Notes under the pieces: generated by a model | Databases searched by the model: none | What the model was told of the DNA's origin: nothing | Seen by the model: the letters and a program-made list of their open reading frames with translations, nothing else | Translations under genes and position numbers: made by a program | Part shown: positions 32,893 through 39,628 of the stretch, one piece after another | How positions within the stretch are numbered: position 1 is the first letter of the stretch | Layout of the letters: each line of letters begins with the position of its first letter | Assembly (NCBI RefSeq): GCF_004364865.1 | Contig: NZ_SOAU01000001.1 | Span: forward strand, 1,178,001-1,242,000 | Reading direction: 5' to 3' | Origin: Ilumatobacter fluminis | GTDB taxonomy: Bacteria; Actinomycetota; Acidimicrobiia; Acidimicrobiales; Ilumatobacteraceae | DNA: 64,000 nucleotides

Positions 32893-33693
32893 TCAGCCGA
32901 CCGACGGGATGGCGTGCTCCAGCACGTCGCGCAGCCGGGCGATGTTCTCGCGCATCACGGCGAGGACGCCGTCCATGGTCACCGGTTCGTGACCGTCGAC
33001 GCCGGCGTCGTAGTCGGTGACCAGAGCGACCGACGCGTAGGCCATGCCGGCCTCGGCGGCGAGCACGGCTTCGGGCATGCCGGTCATGTTGACGACCGAC
33101 CATCCCATCTCCCGGAACCAGCGGCTCTCGGCTCGGGTGGAGAAGCGGGGGCCGTTGATCACGACCATCGCGCCGCCGTCGTGGGCCGTCACCCCGACCC
33201 GGCGTGCGGCGTCGAGGAGGGCACGGCGCAGGCCCGGGTCGTATGGGTCGGCGAAGGCCTGATGGTGCAGCGGCTGGTCGAATCCCGGTGCGTCGTCGGG
33301 TGCGCCGCGATCGAAGAAGGTGGCGTCGCGACCCCAGGTGCGGTCGACGATCTGGTCGACGACGACGAAATCTCCCGGGTGCAGATCGGGTTGCAGCGAG
33401 CCGCAGGAACACGGACCGAACACGGAGCGGACGCCGAGCGACGCCATCGCCCAGATGTTCGCCCGGAACGGCACACGATGTGCGACGTAGTCGTGGTCGC
33501 GGCCGTGGCGGGGCAGGAACGCGACGGTTCGTCCGGCGACCTCGCCGACCGTGATCGCCGCGGAGGGCGCGCCGTACGGCGTGTCGAACTCGAGGTCGAC
33601 CGGGTCGTCGATGAATTCGTAGAACCCCGATCCGCCGATGACGCCCACCTCGATGCCGAACTCGCTGGCCCGGTCGTCGAGGGGGATCAGCAT
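32893..33693 (-). CDS. mtnP: S-methyl-5'-thioadenosine phosphorylase
   Basis: 266 residues; phosphorolysis of methylthioadenosine to adenine and methylthioribose-1-phosphate in methionine salvage. Motifs: VGVIGGSGFYEF at the N-terminus (phosphate site), PRHGRDHDYVAHRVPFRANIWA, GPCSCGSLQP, and VINGPRFSTRAESRWFREMG with VNMTGMPEAVLAAEAGMAYA (substrate Met/Glu). The two adjacent Cys (CSC) are typical of MTAP. It starts with a TGATG overlap with the FmdB-like gene, so both are on one leftward transcript. Adenine released would join the purine salvage functions seen at 51-59 kb. Confidence 0.9.
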   Translation of the reverse strand: MLIPLDDRASEFGIEVGVIGGSGFYEFIDDPVDLEFDTPYGAPSAAITVGEVAGRTVAFLPRHGRDHDYVAHRVPFRANIWAMASLGVRSVFGPCSCGSLQPDLHPGDFVVVDQIVDRTWGRDATFFDRGAPDDAPGFDQPLHHQAFADPYDPGLRRALLDAARRVGVTAHDGGAMVVINGPRFSTRAESRWFREMGWSVVNMTGMPEAVLAAEAGMAYASVALVTDYDAGVDGHEPVTMDGVLAVMRENIARLRDVLEHAIPSVG

Positions 33694-34016
33694 CAGTCGC
33701 TCGACGAGCTACCGGTGGAGCTGCTCGACGACGAGCTGTCGCTCGAACCGCTGCTCGACGAGGAGCTGTCGCTCGACGTGCTGGTGGCAGTCGACGACGA
33801 GCTGCTCGACGAGCTCTTCTTCGATCCGGAACGGCTGTCGGTCTTGTAGAACCCCTGGCCCTTGAACGTGACGCCGACCGGCTGGAAGACCTTCTTCACC
33901 GGCATGGTCTTCCCGCTCTCGGGGTGCACGGCCTCGGTGAGGGTGTCCTCGTCGAACGACTGCTGGATTTCGATGGTTTCGTCGGTCTCGACGAACTTGT
34001 ACACGTAGGTGGGCAT
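33693..34016 (-). CDS. FmdB-family small protein lacking all zinc-ligand cysteines, poly-Ser tail
   Basis: 107 residues. The first 60 align by eye with FmdB-type regulatory zinc-ribbon proteins: MPTYVYKF at the start, QQSFDEDTLTE, and VGVTFKGQGFYKTDSR at the end of the ribbon. In normal members two CxxC pairs bind zinc; here those positions read FVETDE and VHPESG, and the protein contains no Cys at all. Residues 61-107 are almost only Ser with a few Thr, Asp and Gly. A TATCTT box lies 10 nt before the ATG. It is coupled to mtnP by TGATG. Function is unknown; loss of zinc suggests a structural or interaction role. Confidence 0.8.
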   Translation of the reverse strand: MPTYVYKFVETDETIEIQQSFDEDTLTEAVHPESGKTMPVKKVFQPVGVTFKGQGFYKTDSRSGSKKSSSSSSSSTATSTSSDSSSSSSGSSDSSSSSSSTGSSSSD

Positions 34017-34093: not shown

Positions 34094-34645
34094 TCAGGGG
34101 GTTCGGAACGAGTCGGTGACCTCGGTGGGGATGCCGTGGGCGTCGACGGTCACCGTGGCGGTGCCGTCGGCACGATCGACCACGTAGGTGTGTTCGTCGG
34201 TCCGGCGGTACGTGGCCGCCGCCGGCACGATGCCGAGTGTGTCGACGTCGACGTCGAGCACGACCGTGGGCGCCTCTTGGCCGACGGCGAGGGCGAGCCG
34301 ACGGATCGGCCCGGCGTGACTGAACGGCGTGACCGCCATGGCGATGTCGATGCCGCCGTCGAGATCGACCCGATGGGCGCCGTTCATCTCCCCCCATCGT
34401 CCGTGTCCGTCGGTGCCGAGCCACAGGTCGGGCTCGGCGAGGTCGCGGAACAACAGGAACTGGCGCACCTGCCACATGGGGGAGAGGCGGACGACGTATT
34501 GAACGTCGTGGCTGCCGACCTGGCCGGTCGCCGTCCAGGCCTCGTTGTCCCAGACCAGGGTGAACGATTCCTCGTGGTTGCCGTCCCACGTCTGCCAGCG
34601 CGTGGCGTAGCCGTCGGCGGGGATGGGCTCGTGGAGCGGATTCAC
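34094..34645 (-). CDS. Putative glycolipid-binding family protein
   Basis: 183 residues. The sequence follows the putative glycolipid-binding family (bacterial, about 180-200 residues): WQTWDGNHEESFTLVWDNEA, VQYVVRLSPMWQVRQFLLFR, DLWLGTDGHGRWGEMNG, and IDIAMAVTPFSHAGPIRRL with a closing YRRTDEHTYVVDRADG. No signal peptide, so probably cytoplasmic. Biochemistry is not established for most members. It starts at GTG 34645 and is divergent from moeA, with 39 nt between the starts. Confidence 0.75.
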   Translation of the reverse strand: MNPLHEPIPADGYATRWQTWDGNHEESFTLVWDNEAWTATGQVGSHDVQYVVRLSPMWQVRQFLLFRDLAEPDLWLGTDGHGRWGEMNGAHRVDLDGGIDIAMAVTPFSHAGPIRRLALAVGQEAPTVVLDVDVDTLGIVPAAATYRRTDEHTYVVDRADGTATVTVDAHGIPTEVTDSFRTP

Positions 34646-34672
34646 CGTTCCAGTGTGCCGTGGCGTGGCCGG

Positions 34673-34678
34673 TACGGT
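34673..34678 (+). promoter_or_regulatory. Leaderless -10 box for moeA/glp
   Basis: TACGGT, 6 nt before GTG 34685, no Shine-Dalgarno sequence. Confidence 0.5.
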
Positions 34679-34684
34679 GCGGGT

Positions 34685-35896
34685 GTGAAACCGCTCGAAG
34701 ACGCCCAGACGTTCGTGTTGTCCGAGTGCCCGCCGCACGACCCGGTCGCCGTCGATTTCGTCGTCGCCGAAGGTCTCGTCCTGGCCGACGACGTGGTCGC
34801 CACCGAACAGGTGCCGCCGTTCGACAACACGGCGGTCGACGGCTACGCGGTGATCGCCGCCGACGTCGCGGGCGCCGCCGACTCGCCGGTCGAACTGCCC
34901 GTCGTCGACGAGATCGCGGCGGGTGCCCACAGCGCGCATGTGCTGCAGCGCGGCGAGGCGATCAGGATCATGACCGGCGCCCCGATGCCCGCCGGTGCCG
35001 ACGCCGTGGTCATGGTCGAGGACACCGAACGGGTCGGCGACGACCGTGTCCGCATCTCGGCGTCGGTCGAGTCGGGTGCGGCGGTCCGCCGGGCCGGTGA
35101 CGACGTCCAGCCCGGCGACCTGCTGTTCGAGGCGGGCACCGTGGTCACCCCGGCCATCGTCGGCGTGCTGGCCTCGATCAACGCACGGCGAGTACACGTT
35201 CACCCCCGGCTGAAGGTCGCCGTGTTGTCGACCGGCGACGAGCTCGTCGAGGACGGGCGCGAGCTGCAGCCGGGCGAGATCCGCGAGAGCAATCGGCGGA
35301 TGCTCGCCGGCATGCTGCGCGAGACCGGTTGCGAGGTGGTCGACGTCGGCATCGTCCGAGACGACGAGGACGCGCTCGAGACCGTGCTCCTGAACGCGGC
35401 GGCGTCGTGCGACGCGATCGTCACGAGCGGCGGCGTCAGCATGGGCGACTACGACGTGGTCAAGGCCGTCCTCGGCCAGATCGCCGACATGACGTGGATG
35501 CAGATCGCGATCAAGCCCGCCAAGCCGTTCGCGTTCGGCAAGATCGAGGGCACGCCGATCTTCGGACTGCCGGGCAACCCGGTGAGCTCGATCGTCAGTT
35601 TCGAGATGCTCGCCCGTCCTGCTCTGCGCCGGATGATGGGGCACCGACGCCTCGCCCGGCCGAGCCTCGTCGCCGTCGCCGACGAGGGGTTGCCCCGCCG
35701 CTCCGACGGCAAGGTCCACCTGGTTCGGGTGCTGGCCGAGTTCGGCGACGACGGTCGTTGCCATGTTCGCTCCGCCCGGGCCCAGGGCAGCCACCAGCTC
35801 GCCGCCACAGCCCTCTCGAACGCGATCGCCATCGTCCCCGACGGCGACGGCATCCCCGACGGCGCCGACGTCGCCATCGTCATGCTCCAGGGCTGA
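34685..35896 (+). CDS. moeA: MoeA/gephyrin-like molybdopterin molybdotransferase (Glp-type candidate)
   Basis: 403 residues. MoeA inserts molybdate into adenylated molybdopterin. Motifs: PPFDNTAVDGYAV (about 48-60), IMTGAPMPAGADAVVMVE, VAVLSTGDELVEDG, SGGVSMGDYDVVKAVL, KPAKPFAFGKI and FGLPGNPVSSIVSFEML, then the C-terminal domain IV. In Corynebacteriales a MoeA-like protein, Glp, binds FtsZ and a membrane receptor GlpR encoded nearby. A GlpR/SepX-like gene lies at 38657, so this protein may act in division, in cofactor synthesis, or both. It heads the run moeA-moaA-36933-moaC. Confidence 0.9.
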   Translation: MKPLEDAQTFVLSECPPHDPVAVDFVVAEGLVLADDVVATEQVPPFDNTAVDGYAVIAADVAGAADSPVELPVVDEIAAGAHSAHVLQRGEAIRIMTGAPMPAGADAVVMVEDTERVGDDRVRISASVESGAAVRRAGDDVQPGDLLFEAGTVVTPAIVGVLASINARRVHVHPRLKVAVLSTGDELVEDGRELQPGEIRESNRRMLAGMLRETGCEVVDVGIVRDDEDALETVLLNAAASCDAIVTSGGVSMGDYDVVKAVLGQIADMTWMQIAIKPAKPFAFGKIEGTPIFGLPGNPVSSIVSFEMLARPALRRMMGHRRLARPSLVAVADEGLPRRSDGKVHLVRVLAEFGDDGRCHVRSARAQGSHQLAATALSNAIAIVPDGDGIPDGADVAIVMLQG

Positions 35897-35921
35897 CCCC
35901 GTCCGTACGGGGAATCGCCCG

Positions 35922-35927
35922 TAGGCT
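35922..35927 (+). promoter_or_regulatory. Leaderless -10 box for moaA
   Basis: TAGGCT, 6 nt before ATG 35934, no Shine-Dalgarno sequence. Confidence 0.5.
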
Positions 35928-35933
35928 GGTCGC

Positions 35934-36932
35934 ATGGGAGCAGGGGAAGCTCGTGATCTGGTCGACCCGTACGGTCGCGTCGTGCGCGACCTGCGCATCG
36001 CCGTCACCGACCGCTGCAACTTCCGGTGCACGTACTGCATGCCCGAGGAGGGCATGGAGTGGATGCCCCGCTCGGAGATCCTCACGTTCGAAGAGATCAC
36101 CCGCGTCGCCCGCATCTGCGTCGAACAGTACGGCTTCACCGGCATCAGGCTCACGGGTGGTGAGCCCACGATCCGAGCTCACTTCAGCCGGCTGGTCAGC
36201 CAGCTGTCCGGGCTCGGCATCGACGTGGCGATGACCACCAACGCTGCGACGCTCCGCAACACGGCCCACGATCTGCATGCGGCAGGGCTGAACCGCATCA
36301 ACATCAGTCTCGACACGCTCGACCGCGAGAAATTCGAGCGGATGACCCGCCGCGACGAGTTGGAGAACGTCCTCGCCGGCATCGACGCGGCGATCGACGC
36401 CGGTTTCGAGCCGGTGAAGATCAACGCCGTGATCGAACGCGGCGTCAACGACGACGAGCTCGTCGATCTCGCCCGCTTCGGGCGCGACACCGGCGTCGAG
36501 GTCCGGTTCATCGAGTTCATGCCGCTCGACGCCACCGACGAATGGCAGCGGTCGAAGGTCGTCGGCCAGGACGAGATCGTCGCCCGACTCTCCGAGGTGT
36601 GGGAACTCGAACAGGTGCCGGCCCGCGGCGCCGCGCCGGCCGACCGGTGGCGGTACACCGACGGCGGGGGACTGGTCGGCGTGATCCCGACGGTCACGAA
36701 GCCATTCTGTGGCGACTGTGACCGCGTCCGGCTCACCGCCGACGGTCAGCTCCGAACCTGCCTGTTCTCGACCGACGAGTTCGATCTCCGTGCCGCTCTG
36801 CGCGACGGCGAGACCGACGAGCAGATCGCCGCTCGCATCGAGGCTGCCGTCGGTACGAAGTGGGCGGGTCACCAGATCAACCAGGTCAACTTCATCCGCC
36901 CGAAGCGGAACATGAGCCAGATCGGCGGCTGA
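35934..36932 (+). CDS. moaA: GTP 3',8-cyclase MoaA
   Basis: 332 residues; radical-SAM enzyme that with MoaC turns GTP into cyclic pyranopterin monophosphate. The N-terminal cluster motif CNFRCTYC has Cys28, Cys32 and Cys35. The second [4Fe-4S] cluster uses Cys259, Cys262 (FCGDCDRVRL) and Cys276. TGGEPTIR is the SAM-binding GGE motif, and the chain ends in Gly-Gly, the C-terminal tail needed for catalysis. It is followed with no spacer by the secreted-protein gene (TGA then GTG). Confidence 0.96.
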   Translation: MGAGEARDLVDPYGRVVRDLRIAVTDRCNFRCTYCMPEEGMEWMPRSEILTFEEITRVARICVEQYGFTGIRLTGGEPTIRAHFSRLVSQLSGLGIDVAMTTNAATLRNTAHDLHAAGLNRINISLDTLDREKFERMTRRDELENVLAGIDAAIDAGFEPVKINAVIERGVNDDELVDLARFGRDTGVEVRFIEFMPLDATDEWQRSKVVGQDEIVARLSEVWELEQVPARGAAPADRWRYTDGGGLVGVIPTVTKPFCGDCDRVRLTADGQLRTCLFSTDEFDLRAALRDGETDEQIAARIEAAVGTKWAGHQINQVNFIRPKRNMSQIGG

Positions 36933-37907
36933 GTGCGACGCGGCGCGGCGATCGGGATGCTGGTCGCCGCCGGCGTTTCGGCGTCGGCCGTCGCCGCCCT
37001 TTCCGTCATCGACGAACCGGCGGTCGTCGACACCGTCGCAAGGCGGGTGCGATCGGCGGTGCCGACCGTCGGGGGGTGCGACGTGTTCCCGGCCGACAAC
37101 GCCTGGAACCGCGACGTCTCGGCCGACCCGCTCCGTGCCGACTCCGATGCGATCATCGCCACGATCCAGTCGAACGGCGGGACCCGGCTGCACCCCGACT
37201 TCGGCGAGAACCCGGACTACGGCATCCCGTACGTGGTCGTTCCACCCGATCAACCGCTGGTGCCGGTCGACTACGTCGCGTACGGCGACGAGAGCGACCC
37301 GGGTCCGTTCCCGATCCCGCTCGACGCGCCGGTCGAGGGTGGCAGCGCGGCCACCGGTGACCGTCACGTCCTGGCGGTGCGAGCCGGCACGTGCGAGCTG
37401 TTCGAGCTGTACCGGGCCTTCCCGACCGGCAACCGCTGGCGCGCCGACAGCGGCGCCCGGTTCGACCTGTCGTCCAACGCGCTCCGGCCCGCCGGTTGGA
37501 CGTCGGCAGACGCGGCCGGGCTCCCGATCCTGCCCGGCTTGGTCCGCTACGAGGAGGTGGCGTCGGGCGCCATCCATCACGCGATCCGGGTCACGTTCTC
37601 GCGCACGCAGCGGGGCTACATCGCTCCCGCCACCCACTTCGCCTCCACGCGTACCGACCCGACGCTGCCGCCGATGGGGTTGCGCCTTCGTCTGAAGGCG
37701 TCGTACGACGTGAGCAGCCTGTCGGGGCAGGCGAAGGTGATCGCCGTGGCCATGCAGCGGTACGGGTTGATCGTCGCCGACAACGGGTCGAACTGGTACT
37801 TCCAGGGAGCGCCCGACCCGGGCTGGGACGACGACGACCTGAACCAGCTGAAGGCGGTGCCGGGCACCGCCTTCGAGGTCGTCGACACGGGTTCGATCCA
37901 ACGGTGA
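36933..37907 (+). CDS. Secreted protein of unknown function
   Basis: 324 residues starting at the GTG directly after the moaA stop. A signal peptide (about 1-24, AIGMLVAAGVSASAVAALS) precedes a single large domain. Recurrent features are CDVFPADNAWNRDVSADPLR, PDYGIPYVVVPPDQPLVPVD, GDRHVLAVRAGTCELFELYR (two Cys may pair), FDLSSNALRPAGWTSADAAG, IHHAIRVTF and GLIVADNGSNWYFQGAPDP. Trp- and Asp-rich segments suggest a carbohydrate- or surface-related fold, but no family was recognised. Zero spacing to moaA implies co-translation, which is odd for a secreted product inside a cofactor operon. Confidence 0.72.
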   Translation: MRRGAAIGMLVAAGVSASAVAALSVIDEPAVVDTVARRVRSAVPTVGGCDVFPADNAWNRDVSADPLRADSDAIIATIQSNGGTRLHPDFGENPDYGIPYVVVPPDQPLVPVDYVAYGDESDPGPFPIPLDAPVEGGSAATGDRHVLAVRAGTCELFELYRAFPTGNRWRADSGARFDLSSNALRPAGWTSADAAGLPILPGLVRYEEVASGAIHHAIRVTFSRTQRGYIAPATHFASTRTDPTLPPMGLRLRLKASYDVSSLSGQAKVIAVAMQRYGLIVADNGSNWYFQGAPDPGWDDDDLNQLKAVPGTAFEVVDTGSIQR

Positions 37908-37933
37908 CCCTGCCCGGGGCCGGTGCGGCGAAC

Positions 37934-37939
37934 TAACCT
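37934..37939 (+). promoter_or_regulatory. -10 box for moaC
   Basis: TAACCT, 9 nt before ATG 37949, no Shine-Dalgarno sequence. Confidence 0.4.
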
Positions 37940-37948
37940 CGTGGCCGC

Positions 37949-38443
37949 ATGAGTGACGCCGCGAACGACCTCGAGTTCACCCACCTCGACCCGCTCGGGC
38001 ACGCCCGGATGGTCGACGTGACACCGAAGGAGCCGACGCACCGCCGTGCGGTTGCCCGCTGCAAGGTGTTCATGAAACCGGAGACGACGGTGGCGATCGC
38101 CAACCGTGAGGTCAAGAAGGGTGACGTGTTGGCCGTCGCCAGAGTGGCCGGGATCCAGGCCGCCAAGCGGACGGCCGATCTGATCCCGCTGTGTCACCCA
38201 CTCCTCGTCGGTGCGGTCTCGATCAGCTTCGACATCGGTGACGATCACGTGGCGGTCGAGACGTTCGTCGACACCGTCGACCGGACCGGCGTCGAGATGG
38301 AAGCGCTGCACGCCTGTGCGACTGCGGCGCTCACGATCTACGACATGTGCAAGTCGGCCGACCGTGCGATGACGATCGGCGAACTCGCGCTGTGGGAGAA
38401 GACGGGCGGCCGTTCGGGCACCTATCGCCGGGTCGAGGACTGA
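37949..38443 (+). CDS. moaC: Cyclic pyranopterin monophosphate synthase MoaC
   Basis: 164 residues; completes cPMP formation from the MoaA product. Motifs: MVDVTPKEPTHRRAVA near the N-terminus, GDVLAVARVAGIQAAKRTAD, LIPLCHPLLVGAVSISFD (catalytic His region), and DRTGVEMEALHACATAALTI with YDMCKSADR. Normal length. It is the last molybdopterin gene of the cluster; moaB, moaD, moaE and mobA are not in the window. Confidence 0.95.
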   Translation: MSDAANDLEFTHLDPLGHARMVDVTPKEPTHRRAVARCKVFMKPETTVAIANREVKKGDVLAVARVAGIQAAKRTADLIPLCHPLLVGAVSISFDIGDDHVAVETFVDTVDRTGVEMEALHACATAALTIYDMCKSADRAMTIGELALWEKTGGRSGTYRRVED

Positions 38444-38536
38444 GACTGCGTAAGCTCTCGCACATGTCCCCGACGGCACCAACCCTGCGACGGTGTCCGG
38501 GAGATGGACGACAGATGACGAATCACACCTCCTGCG

Positions 38537-38566
38537 TTGCCGTACCTGTTACAAATGTCGTAGAAT
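38537..38566 (+). promoter_or_regulatory. Sigma-A-like promoter for the GlpR/SepX-like gene
   Basis: TTGCCG (38537-38542), an 18-nt spacer and TAGAAT (38561-38566) lie in an unusually AT-rich stretch of the 213-bp gap after moaC. A GGAA ribosome site and about 85 nt of leader precede ATG 38657. This is one of the few non-leaderless arrangements here. Confidence 0.55.
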
Positions 38567-38656
38567 CGTAATGAAACGTCGTTCTTGTGATCGCGGCCTC
38601 GCGAACCGGAACCGATCGAACGCTCCCGCCGAAAGACTCTGAAGGAACTCACACAC

Positions 38657-39340
38657 ATGGGCGAACTCGTCCTCCTGGTGATCGCCGCCGCTTGGGCGGC
38701 CGTGCTGATCCCGCCGCTGCTCCGTAACCGCATCGAGAACCGACCCAACTCGTCGGTGACCGACTTCCGTCGTCAGCTCAACAAGCTGCAGAGCACCGTG
38801 CCCAGTCGGGCGGGTGCCCCGATGCGCGGCATGGCCCGCCCGCTCGCCCAGTCGCCGCTCCAGCGTCCCGCCGCCGGTGGACGCCCCGGCCAGCAGCCGG
38901 CGCAGCTCCGTCGTGGTGCCGGTGGTCGCACCCACGGCGCCCGCTCCGGCGCGCAGGTTCGCGAGCGGGAGCAGGCTCCCCGTCAGCGCAGCCACGGCGA
39001 CCCCACCGGTGGCCAGCGTCGTCCCCAGTACCGCGACGAACAGCCCCGTCAGCGGAGCCACGGCGATCCGACCGGTGGCCAGCGCCGTCCGCAGCACCGC
39101 GACGAGCGCCGTCCGGCGGCCGCCTCGAACGAGATGATCCGTCGTCGCCGCTCGAACGTGCTGTTCATGCTCGTCGTCACCGTCGCTGCCACCCTGTTCC
39201 TCGCTGCGACCACTCAGTCGGCCGTCATGCTGTACGTGTTCGCCGCAGCGTTCCTCGCCCTGTGTGCCTACGGCTACATGCTGTCCCAGGCCCGCCAGCG
39301 CGAGACCAGCTCGTGGCCGAGCGACTGGATGCAGCACTGA
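38657..39340 (+). CDS. GlpR/SepX-like actinobacterial division membrane protein
   Basis: 227 residues. One N-terminal helix (3-20) is followed by a conserved-looking juxtamembrane segment (VTDFRRQLNKLQSTVPS, 34-50), a long basic disordered region, and two closely spaced helices at 166-186 and 188-208. This topology, and a location beside a MoeA/Glp homologue, match SepX of Streptomyces and GlpR of Corynebacterium (Rv0996-like in mycobacteria), a membrane receptor for Glp at the septum. Two 22-residue tandem repeats (108-129 and 130-151, PRQRSHGDPTGGQRRPQ core) occupy the disordered part. Assignment rests on topology and synteny, not on alignment. Confidence 0.65.
   Translation: MGELVLLVIAAAWAAVLIPPLLRNRIENRPNSSVTDFRRQLNKLQSTVPSRAGAPMRGMARPLAQSPLQRPAAGGRPGQQPAQLRRGAGGRTHGARSGAQVREREQAPRQRSHGDPTGGQRRPQYRDEQPRQRSHGDPTGGQRRPQHRDERRPAAASNEMIRRRRSNVLFMLVVTVAATLFLAATTQSAVMLYVFAAAFLALCAYGYMLSQARQRETSSWPSDWMQH
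38978..39109 (+). repeat. 66-bp in-frame tandem repeat in the GlpR/SepX-like gene
   Basis: Two copies, 38978-39043 and 39044-39109, encode 22 residues each; they differ at several third positions and by Tyr/His and Gln/Arg, so the duplication is not brand new. Confidence 0.8.
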
Positions 39341-39397
39341 GCCACTGATCCGGCTCGTGCGAGCCGAACCGGGCGGTGCAACCGTCCATGGCGCCGC

Positions 39398-39403
39398 TAC
39401 ACT
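39398..39403 (+). promoter_or_regulatory. -10 box for tRNA-Ala
   Basis: TACACT, 15 nt upstream of the mature tRNA 5' end. No clear -35 was found. Confidence 0.35.
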
Positions 39404-39418
39404 GCGGCCGTCACTTAC

Positions 39419-39494
39419 GGGGCTGTAGCTCAGTTGGCAGAGCGCTTCGTTCGCAATGAAGAGGTCAGGGGTTCAATTCCCCTCAGCTCCACCA
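39419..39494 (+). tRNA. tRNA-Ala (anticodon CGC)
   Basis: 76 nt with CCA encoded. The acceptor stem GGGGCTG/CAGCTCC includes the G3-U70 wobble that identifies alanine tRNAs. The D arm is GCTC-AGTTGGCA-GAGC, the anticodon arm CTTCG-TTCGCAA-TGAAG with CGC at positions 34-36, a 5-nt variable loop, and the T arm AGGGG-TTCAATT-CCCCT. It reads GCG codons. Confidence 0.97.
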
Positions 39495-39503
39495 GAACCG
39501 TGA

Positions 39504-39529
39504 AGATCCGGCCCCTCGGGGCCGGATCT
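39504..39529 (+). terminator. Hairpin terminator after tRNA-Ala
   Basis: AGATCCGGCCC and GGGCCGGATCT form an 11-bp perfect stem around CTCG, starting 9 nt after the tRNA. Only short T-rich sequence (CGTCGTCTC) follows, so termination may be partly factor dependent. Confidence 0.7.
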
Positions 39530-39628
39530 CGTCGTCTCGGGCCGTGGTGAGCCGGGGCGCCCGAACCCGCTCGACATAACCCCGTTCGTGCGTGCCCGAG
39601 CGACCGTCGGTGGAGTACGTTGCCGACC

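Follow-up and report, generated by a model that had tools for sequence, protein, structure and literature searches.

The window analysed here is a stretch of 64,000 nucleotides from Ilumatobacter fluminis (class Acidimicrobiia, family Ilumatobacteraceae; contig NZ_SOAU01000001.1, positions 1,178,001 to 1,242,000 of the forward strand), whose genome is a single contig of 4,775,416 bases. A cluster in this window carries the molybdenum cofactor genes moeA, moaA and moaC and, downstream of them, a gene for a 227-residue protein (Table 1). Glp is described in published work as a repurposed MoeA duplicate, found mostly in Actinomycetes, which is paired with GlpR and probably has no catalytic activity, and the first-pass annotation had proposed that such a Glp-GlpR/SepX division module is embedded here among molybdopterin genes. 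Its placing of a MoeA homologue and a three-helix protein with a disordered middle in one cluster was borne out, the coordinates being confirmed and the helices being found by hydropathy and by AlphaFold2, and so was the relationship of the 227-residue protein to SepX/GlpR, which was recovered with four NCBIfam models and with a class-only profile. The MoeA itself looks like a catalytic enzyme and not like Glp. We consider it likely that the cluster is an old actinobacterial locus, with SepX/GlpR downstream of molybdenum cofactor genes, in the state that preceded the duplication of MoeA and Glp.

Table 1 Features of the moeA-sepX locus and its flanks (positions in the window)
Feature	Position	Strand	Remarks
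Methylthioadenosine phosphorylase-like gene (presumed product)	32893..33693	-	in the skeleton common to several Actinomycetes Glp loci
FmdB-like protein (presumed product) with long Ser-rich tail	33693..34016	-	divergent from moeA; belongs to the conserved skeleton of the locus
moeA, molybdopterin molybdotransferase, 403 aa	34685..35896	+	GTG start; only MoeA found in the genome; predicted catalytic type
moaA, GTP 3',8-cyclase, 332 aa	35934..36932	+	TIGR02666 381 bits, cut-off 284
324-aa open reading frame (ORF), hydrophobic N-terminus, no family	36933..37907	+	ORF list and family searches
moaC, cyclic pyranopterin monophosphate synthase, 164 aa	37949..38443	+	TIGR00581 195.5 bits, cut-off 141.5; six catalytic residues intact
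Sigma-70-like promoter match, weak (9/12)	38537..38566	+	in the 213-bp moaC-sepX gap; sole match in 34500-39600; shuffles mean 0.3
sepX/glpR homologue, 227 aa	38657..39340	+	profiles, alignment, hydropathy, AlphaFold2
tRNA-Ala(CGC)	39419..39494	+	immediately 3' of sepX; tRNA call

The assignment of the 227-residue protein as a SepX/GlpR homologue is supported by profile comparison. All four NCBIfam SepX/GlpR models matched it in hmmscan, with E values from 3.3e-9 (NF050099) to 4.7e-4. An iterated profile built from the window protein detected a three-helix protein downstream in 31 of the 40 class regions searched and, outside the class, SepX in 13 of 40 MoeA regions of the phylum (L154 excluded), or in 12 of 40 when a class-only profile was used (L, G and f numbers denote loci, genomes and families, G000 being the genome of the window). 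The class-only profile, which is not wholly independent since some of its members were recruited by later rounds of the iterated search with non-class sequences, also detected this three-helix protein at 15 of a further 44 actinobacterial loci (E 1.8e-31 to 1.3e-5) and reached Streptomyces melanogenes (L288) and Nonomuraea (L180); its best reversed decoy had E 0.059 among 8,366 ORFs. One match, L166, had E 1.2e-12 in the iterated search and 0.045 with the class-only profile, and another, L154 (E 4e-6 and 0.003, respectively), was regarded as spurious and rejected. In Janibacter terrae (L281), MoeA and MoaC were present and no SepX match was found in the stretch examined. A search of the PDB with the 227-residue protein gave nothing at E <= 1.

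The protein resembles GlpR of Corynebacterium glutamicum (Cgl0885) and SepX of Streptomyces venezuelae (vnz_14865) in having one N-terminal helix, a C-terminal helix pair and a disordered region between them, in the tryptophan of helix 1 and the arginines ahead of the membrane part of helix 2, in profile homology, and in the position of its gene downstream of a MoeA-family gene. W13, R164 and R165 were invariant in a 33-member SepX alignment. Hydrophobic stretches were located by hydropathy at about residues 1-24 and within 165-210, and the AlphaFold2 model (mean predicted local distance difference test score, pLDDT, 67) has helices at residues 2-26, 34-46, 154-186 and 189-218, with residues 47-153 as low-confidence coil (pLDDT about 50). 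On these predictions the protein would cross the membrane three times, the disordered region lying between its first and second membrane helix.

The 403-residue MoeA could not be upheld as the Glp of the first-pass annotation. Profile search of the contig found one MoeA in this genome and no further copy; the only other match (G000:C1:2277522, L002) was rejected because it reached just 23.5 bits, below the threshold, and lies inside an ABC-permease-like frame. As an observation apart, this frame (G000:C1:2276022-2279246), which appears permease-like from its translation, holds a stretch resembling MoeA_N positions 50-129, below the cut-off, which may come from the insertion of a similar domain into the permease or may reflect chance. 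The N, central and C domains of the window MoeA were all found over their Pfam cut-offs (PF03453, PF00994 and PF03454), and 12 of the 13 active-site positions examined are retained (E. coli numbering). Positions 259, 275, 298 and 301 are those that we take to belong to the active site, and the remaining ones are mutants in PDB entries. Five high-scoring Glp sequences (L064, L065, L067, L072 and L074) all have substitutions at positions 228 and 279, and all but one of the five have one at 259 as well. Four of these (L064, L065, L067 and L072) carry the FtsZ-binding loop LMRD...EYL, where the window MoeA reads VRVLAEFGDDGRCHVRSA, without the M and Y that correspond to M361/Y369 of corynebacterial Glp. 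Since Streptomyces-type Glp sequences (L066, L071) likewise have neither residue, the M...Y loop marks only a part of Glp. At hinges 1 and 2, which are proline-rich in Glp, the MoeA reads SECPPHDPVAV and VHVHPRLKV, and a hinge-2 proline is also present in a proteobacterial MoeA (L184).

The sequence score of the window MoeA is 266 bits to E. coli MoeA vs 170 to Glp. The best-scoring NCBIfam model was the Glp model NF045515, with 391.7 bits against a cut-off of 475; a Glp name was not accepted on this match, which is below the cut-off and to which PRK10680 and MoeA_actino score close. Labels of 'gephyrin-like molybdotransferase Glp' given by PGAP on proteobacterial plasmids were not accepted as evidence for Glp either. 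A predicted monomer (mean pLDDT 94.3) matched plant Cnx1E best, with a template modelling score of 0.93; the E. coli MoeA chains listed scored 0.76-0.90 and Glp (8BVE/8BVF) 0.68-0.74, and as a monomer it does not settle the dimer hinge. Several E. coli MoeA chains are hardly closer to the model than Glp is, and the best Z scores were 41.1, 39.6 and 38.5. By most of the defining features tested, then, the window MoeA is of the putative catalytic type and not a Glp. It resembles E. coli MoeA, Cnx1E and the gephyrin E domain in sequence score, catalytic residues and fold, and differs from them in its genomic setting near a SepX gene, SepX being described as actinobacterial-specific in a passage of PMC8748795. 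With Glp of C. glutamicum (Cgl0883, PDB 8BVE/8BVF) it shares the MoeA fold, a SepX/GlpR gene nearby and the upstream FmdB- and phosphorylase-like skeleton of several Actinomycetes Glp loci, but unlike Glp it is a single copy, keeps its catalytic residues, has no M361/Y369 and falls outside the Glp clade.

The genome holds eight PF02738 and eight PF00384 matches over cut-off (the latter may include NuoG) and MoaE. Because this is the sole MoeA in a genome rich in molybdoenzymes and with MoaE, we infer that it is a working cofactor enzyme. The strongest PF00384 match of the genome lies outside the window (G000:C1:1378177-1379448, L176) and contains one in-frame TGA; it may be a selenocysteine formate dehydrogenase.

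A careful MoeA tree was calculated from 72 of 103 rows, leaving out 11 rows of L185, L184, L131, L130, L028, L171, L165, L161, L150 and L160 and 20 further rows of the class. A quick tree of all 103 rows contained long rows, and its outgroup did not form one side of a branch. In the 72-row tree, Glp and the second MoeA copies formed one clade (support 100/97) within an Actinomycetes group (99/93), to which most SepX-linked loci found beyond the class also belong, while the window's class formed a separate clade and the window MoeA stood outside the Glp clade. The tree shows the Glp/MoeA duplication, as reconstructed from these sequences, to lie inside the Actinomycetes. The linkage of moeA, moaC and sepX was found on both sides of the Glp/MoeA split, and it is therefore probably older than the duplication. 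These results agree with a passage of PMC10522489 in which glp is traced to a duplication in Actinobacteria and described as largely confined to Actinomycetes, and to this the window contributes a locus that resembles the state before duplication. Actinobacteria are said in a passage of PMC11733289 to have systematically kept two or more MoeA copies; as worded there, this does not hold for the Acidimicrobiia. MoeA was detected in 164 of 197 class genomes. Of these, 148 gave one match and 15 gave two or three; the remaining one is the window's own genome, counted apart as its second match is no MoeA. The few copies from multi-MoeA genomes that were placed (L028 and L131, with L130 of G086) branched outside the class clade in the quick tree. 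Tandem MoeA copies were seen in some class genomes (G123, G149, G050, G155, G174, G187 and G169, the last in L131).

Of the 61 genomes examined from the window's family, 58 have SepX, as do 178 of the 197 class genomes (weakest E 6e-4, several of the f4 matches being weak). A set of 128 class genomes occurred in both the MoeA and the SepX match listings, five moeA places being added; moeA and sepX share a contig in 113 of these and are on different contigs in 15. The synteny in relatives expected by the first-pass annotation was found, with sepX downstream of moeA on the same strand in 113/113 same-contig genomes among the matches listed. The distance is 12 kb or less in 109 of the 113 (median of the 109, 2.7 kb) and 12.9-16.1 kb in the other four. 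A skeleton of divergent FmdB, moeA, (moaA), moaC and sepX recurs in many class loci, and the same skeleton minus moaA is found in Actinomycetes Glp loci. The interleaved moaA and moaC, to which the first-pass annotation had pointed, are both present, but moaA belongs to the skeleton in part of the class only, and moaC next to Glp and SepX is not special to the class because two named Streptomyces (L288 and L296) have moaC between the MoeA-family gene and sepX. SepX linkage was also found in a third lineage (L148).

MoaC was further found in genomes apparently without the rest of the pathway, and this is the point most worth following. MoeA was not detected in 33 of the 197 class genomes, and 16 of these 33 have a MoaC over the Pfam cut-off, 15 full-length and one cut at a contig end (G042, G048, G051, G054, G057, G081, G084, G109, G146, G164, G177, G182, G194, G009, G067 and G094; loci L187, L190, L191 and L210-L221). 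The known substrate of MoaC is made by MoaA. No MoaA C-terminal domain and no MoaE was found in any of the 16, where the molybdoenzyme search covered PF01568, not PF02738; the MoaA and MoaE searches were positive in all four controls (G000, G289, G307 and G344). PF01568 gave one match in 15 of the 16 (14 over cut-off) and none in the other, and these matches, which are weak and lie in frames of 633-1053 residues, are inferred from the frames to be probable NuoG, independent of molybdenum. All 33 MoeA-less genomes are multi-contig assemblies of 90-99% completeness.

These orphan MoaCs resemble the MoaC family in being full-length members that mostly keep the six residues, and differ from it in the missing partners, no MoaA, MoaE or MoeA being detectable in 16/33 MoeA-less class genomes. 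The six residues that we take to be catalytic, in our assumed numbering, are intact in 13 of 15 full-length orphan MoaCs and in 57/57 other MoaCs; histidine 77 is replaced in the remaining two, by R in L214 and by Q in L220. Nine orphan pairs were compared, by a crude counting method, for the ratio of nonsynonymous to synonymous substitution rates (dN/dS). Six pairs, all within f4, gave 0.06-0.29; the other three (two f30, one f4-f13) are saturated at synonymous sites, with proportions of nonsynonymous and synonymous differences of 0.07-0.23 vs 0.80-0.89. The six measurable pairs, all of one family, show purifying selection on orphan MoaC as estimated from their codons. A MoaC tree made by a quick method, which leaves 39 of its 94 inner forks open, places the orphans inside the class clade (98) as f30 (99), the main f4 group (99) and a group that combines f13 and f23 with a single f4 genome. 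With f4 divided in this way, three losses are not proved by the tree alone; setting f30 apart from the others gives two, and f13, where G124 and G188 have MoeA and G194 has none, suggests a third. Two losses of the pathway, and probably three or more, would then be involved.

In the orphan loci, moaC and sepX are adjacent in 4 of 15 (L215, L187, L190 and L191) and not adjacent in 11. An FmdB homologue is the divergent neighbour of MoaC in all 12 orphan loci fetched, moeA and moaA being gone. Among the 33 MoeA-less genomes, SepX occurs in 15 of 16 with MoaC vs 7 of 17 without (Fisher p 0.0024); given the relatedness of these genomes, the test was not made a main argument. Ten of the 33 have neither MoaC nor SepX, and seven have SepX and no MoaC; in family f27, 8/8 are without MoeA and MoaC and 6/8 without SepX. 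Named metagenome-assembled genomes found via MoaC, near the class, bear the labels Acidimicrobiaceae, Acidimicrobiales, Acidimicrobiia, 'Actinomycetes' and 'Actinomycetota bacterium', and L222, L224, L226, L228-L230 and L232 have MoaC without MoeA or MoaA within the stretch examined only. In one of these assemblies, fen_670 (L223:6977-8143), an orphan-type MoaC has a very distant second MoaC as its neighbour. The two lie in a molybdenum gene island, which also has MoaA, MoeA and, as named from their translations, molybdate-transport-like genes and a molybdoenzyme-like gene. Its pathway seems to have a MoaC of its own. The island also calls for caution, since binning could miss islands of this kind. 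Searches of the open-access literature listed no paper that connects moaC with SepX or treats orphan MoaC, and orphan molybdoproteins and partial pathways are discussed in PMC6147048, where the passages concerned do not treat orphan MoaC.

Several observations weigh against an old locus with a catalytic MoeA beside a SepX homologue. The SepX scores of the window protein are far below the curated cut-offs of the four models (37.1/150, 31.5/160, 25.8/150 and 20.3/110 bits), although these cut-offs serve naming and are no limit to homology. The protein is shorter than GlpR and SepX and has one disordered region instead of two, which is basic (isoelectric point, pI, 12.0) and not followed by a second long one, whereas in GlpR the first is acidic (corynebacterial intrinsically disordered region 1, IDR1, pI 4.05) and the second basic, as given in a passage of PMC10522489. 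The window MoeA has Q in place of the E. coli K at position 275, and positions 350 and 371 do not discriminate because Glp keeps them too. The support of the class clade is modest (89/84). SepX is missing from 27 of 40 MoeA regions outside the class, some of which are second MoeA copies, and an ancestral moeA-sepX linkage therefore needs losses in other sampled lineages. Against a tight pair, 22 of the 33 MoeA-less class genomes retain SepX, and in G093, G134 and G015 the two genes are 14-16 kb apart and in G112 on different contigs, SepX being near MoaC in all four. MoeA is not an obligate partner of SepX.

The old actinobacterial locus is still the reading that we prefer. In it, the SepX homologue would be a three-helix membrane protein that helps to build or steady the Z-ring, as described for Streptomyces in a passage of PMC8748795, and its disordered region and helix pair may bind other division proteins. 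MoeA, MoaA and MoaC would make the molybdenum cofactor, and Glp may later have evolved, along the line to Actinomycetes, from a duplicate of the MoeA at this locus. The gene order of the Glp-GlpR pair is thus met here with one MoeA of apparently catalytic type, outside and apparently before the duplication, which makes the locus a natural system for asking whether MoeA was bifunctional before it was duplicated. As lineages apparently without the pathway retain MoaC, MoaC may have a job outside cofactor synthesis, to which we give a little less than an even chance; if its retention without detected MoaA, MoaE and MoeA is true in closed genomes, MoaC has a testable further function. A wider proposal, which we regard as tentative and rather doubtful, is that such a function is conserved in the class, that moaC and sepX form the core of the locus, often kept, in some lineages as neighbours, when moaA, moaE and moeA drop out, that MoaC was the first cofactor enzyme tied to the SepX locus, and that Glp-GlpR grew from a locus already joining both.

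The rival that survives best, with a standing somewhat short of even, is that sepX and the cofactor genes are adjacent by descent only, with no functional tie. The retention of SepX in 22/33 genomes without MoeA, the 11/15 orphan loci with MoaC and no adjacent SepX, and the 27/40 outside MoeA regions without SepX all agree with it, and so does the presence in the skeleton of genes which we take to be FmdB-like, together with PmbA- and UppP-like genes, without evident link to either function. Mere descent is harder to reconcile with an order conserved across many families in 113/113 same-contig genomes, among the matches listed, and with moaC and sepX staying together in 4/15 loci after moeA and moaA were lost.

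We regard as improbable a working Glp-GlpR-like module, in which the single MoeA would both make the cofactor and dock on SepX and FtsZ, as gephyrin does with receptors. The moeA-sepX linkage on both sides of the duplication could be read in this way, the FtsZ of this genome ends in ...DFDVPSFLK, of which P and F resemble the Glp ligand (ligand residues as given in a passage of PMC10522489), and VHPRLKV of hinge 2 resembles VHPRPRL of Glp. However, the FtsZ-binding loop residues are absent, though Streptomyces-type Glp has none either, SepX outlasts MoeA in 22/33 genomes, and in G093, G134, G015 and G112 it keeps near MoaC and is remote from MoeA. That the single MoeA of this locus already touches FtsZ or SepX is likewise unlikely in our judgement; the moonlighting idea of the first-pass annotation is possible as a hypothesis, and is weakened by SepX in those MoeA-less genomes. 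Less probable again is a reading in which the cofactor enzyme that does double duty here is MoaC instead of MoeA, possibly with SepX, the orphan MoaC performing the second task alone, for although MoaC occurs in 16/33 MoeA-less genomes (0/16 with MoaA or MoaE), with six residues intact in 13/15, low dN/dS in 6/9 pairs (all f4), several separate places in its tree, adjacency to sepX in L187, L190, L191 and L215 and the two MoaCs of L223, SepX is not beside it in 11/15 orphan loci, histidine 77 is replaced in 2/15, 10/33 genomes have neither protein and 7/33 only SepX, PF02738 was not among the orphan-genome searches, and 33/33 assemblies are multi-contig and 90-99% complete.

Between moaA and moaC, the 324-residue frame gave no match at E <= 1 in NCBIfam and Pfam. 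Homologues of it were found in four of the seven same-family loci (L093, L094, L095 and L098), and also in L231.

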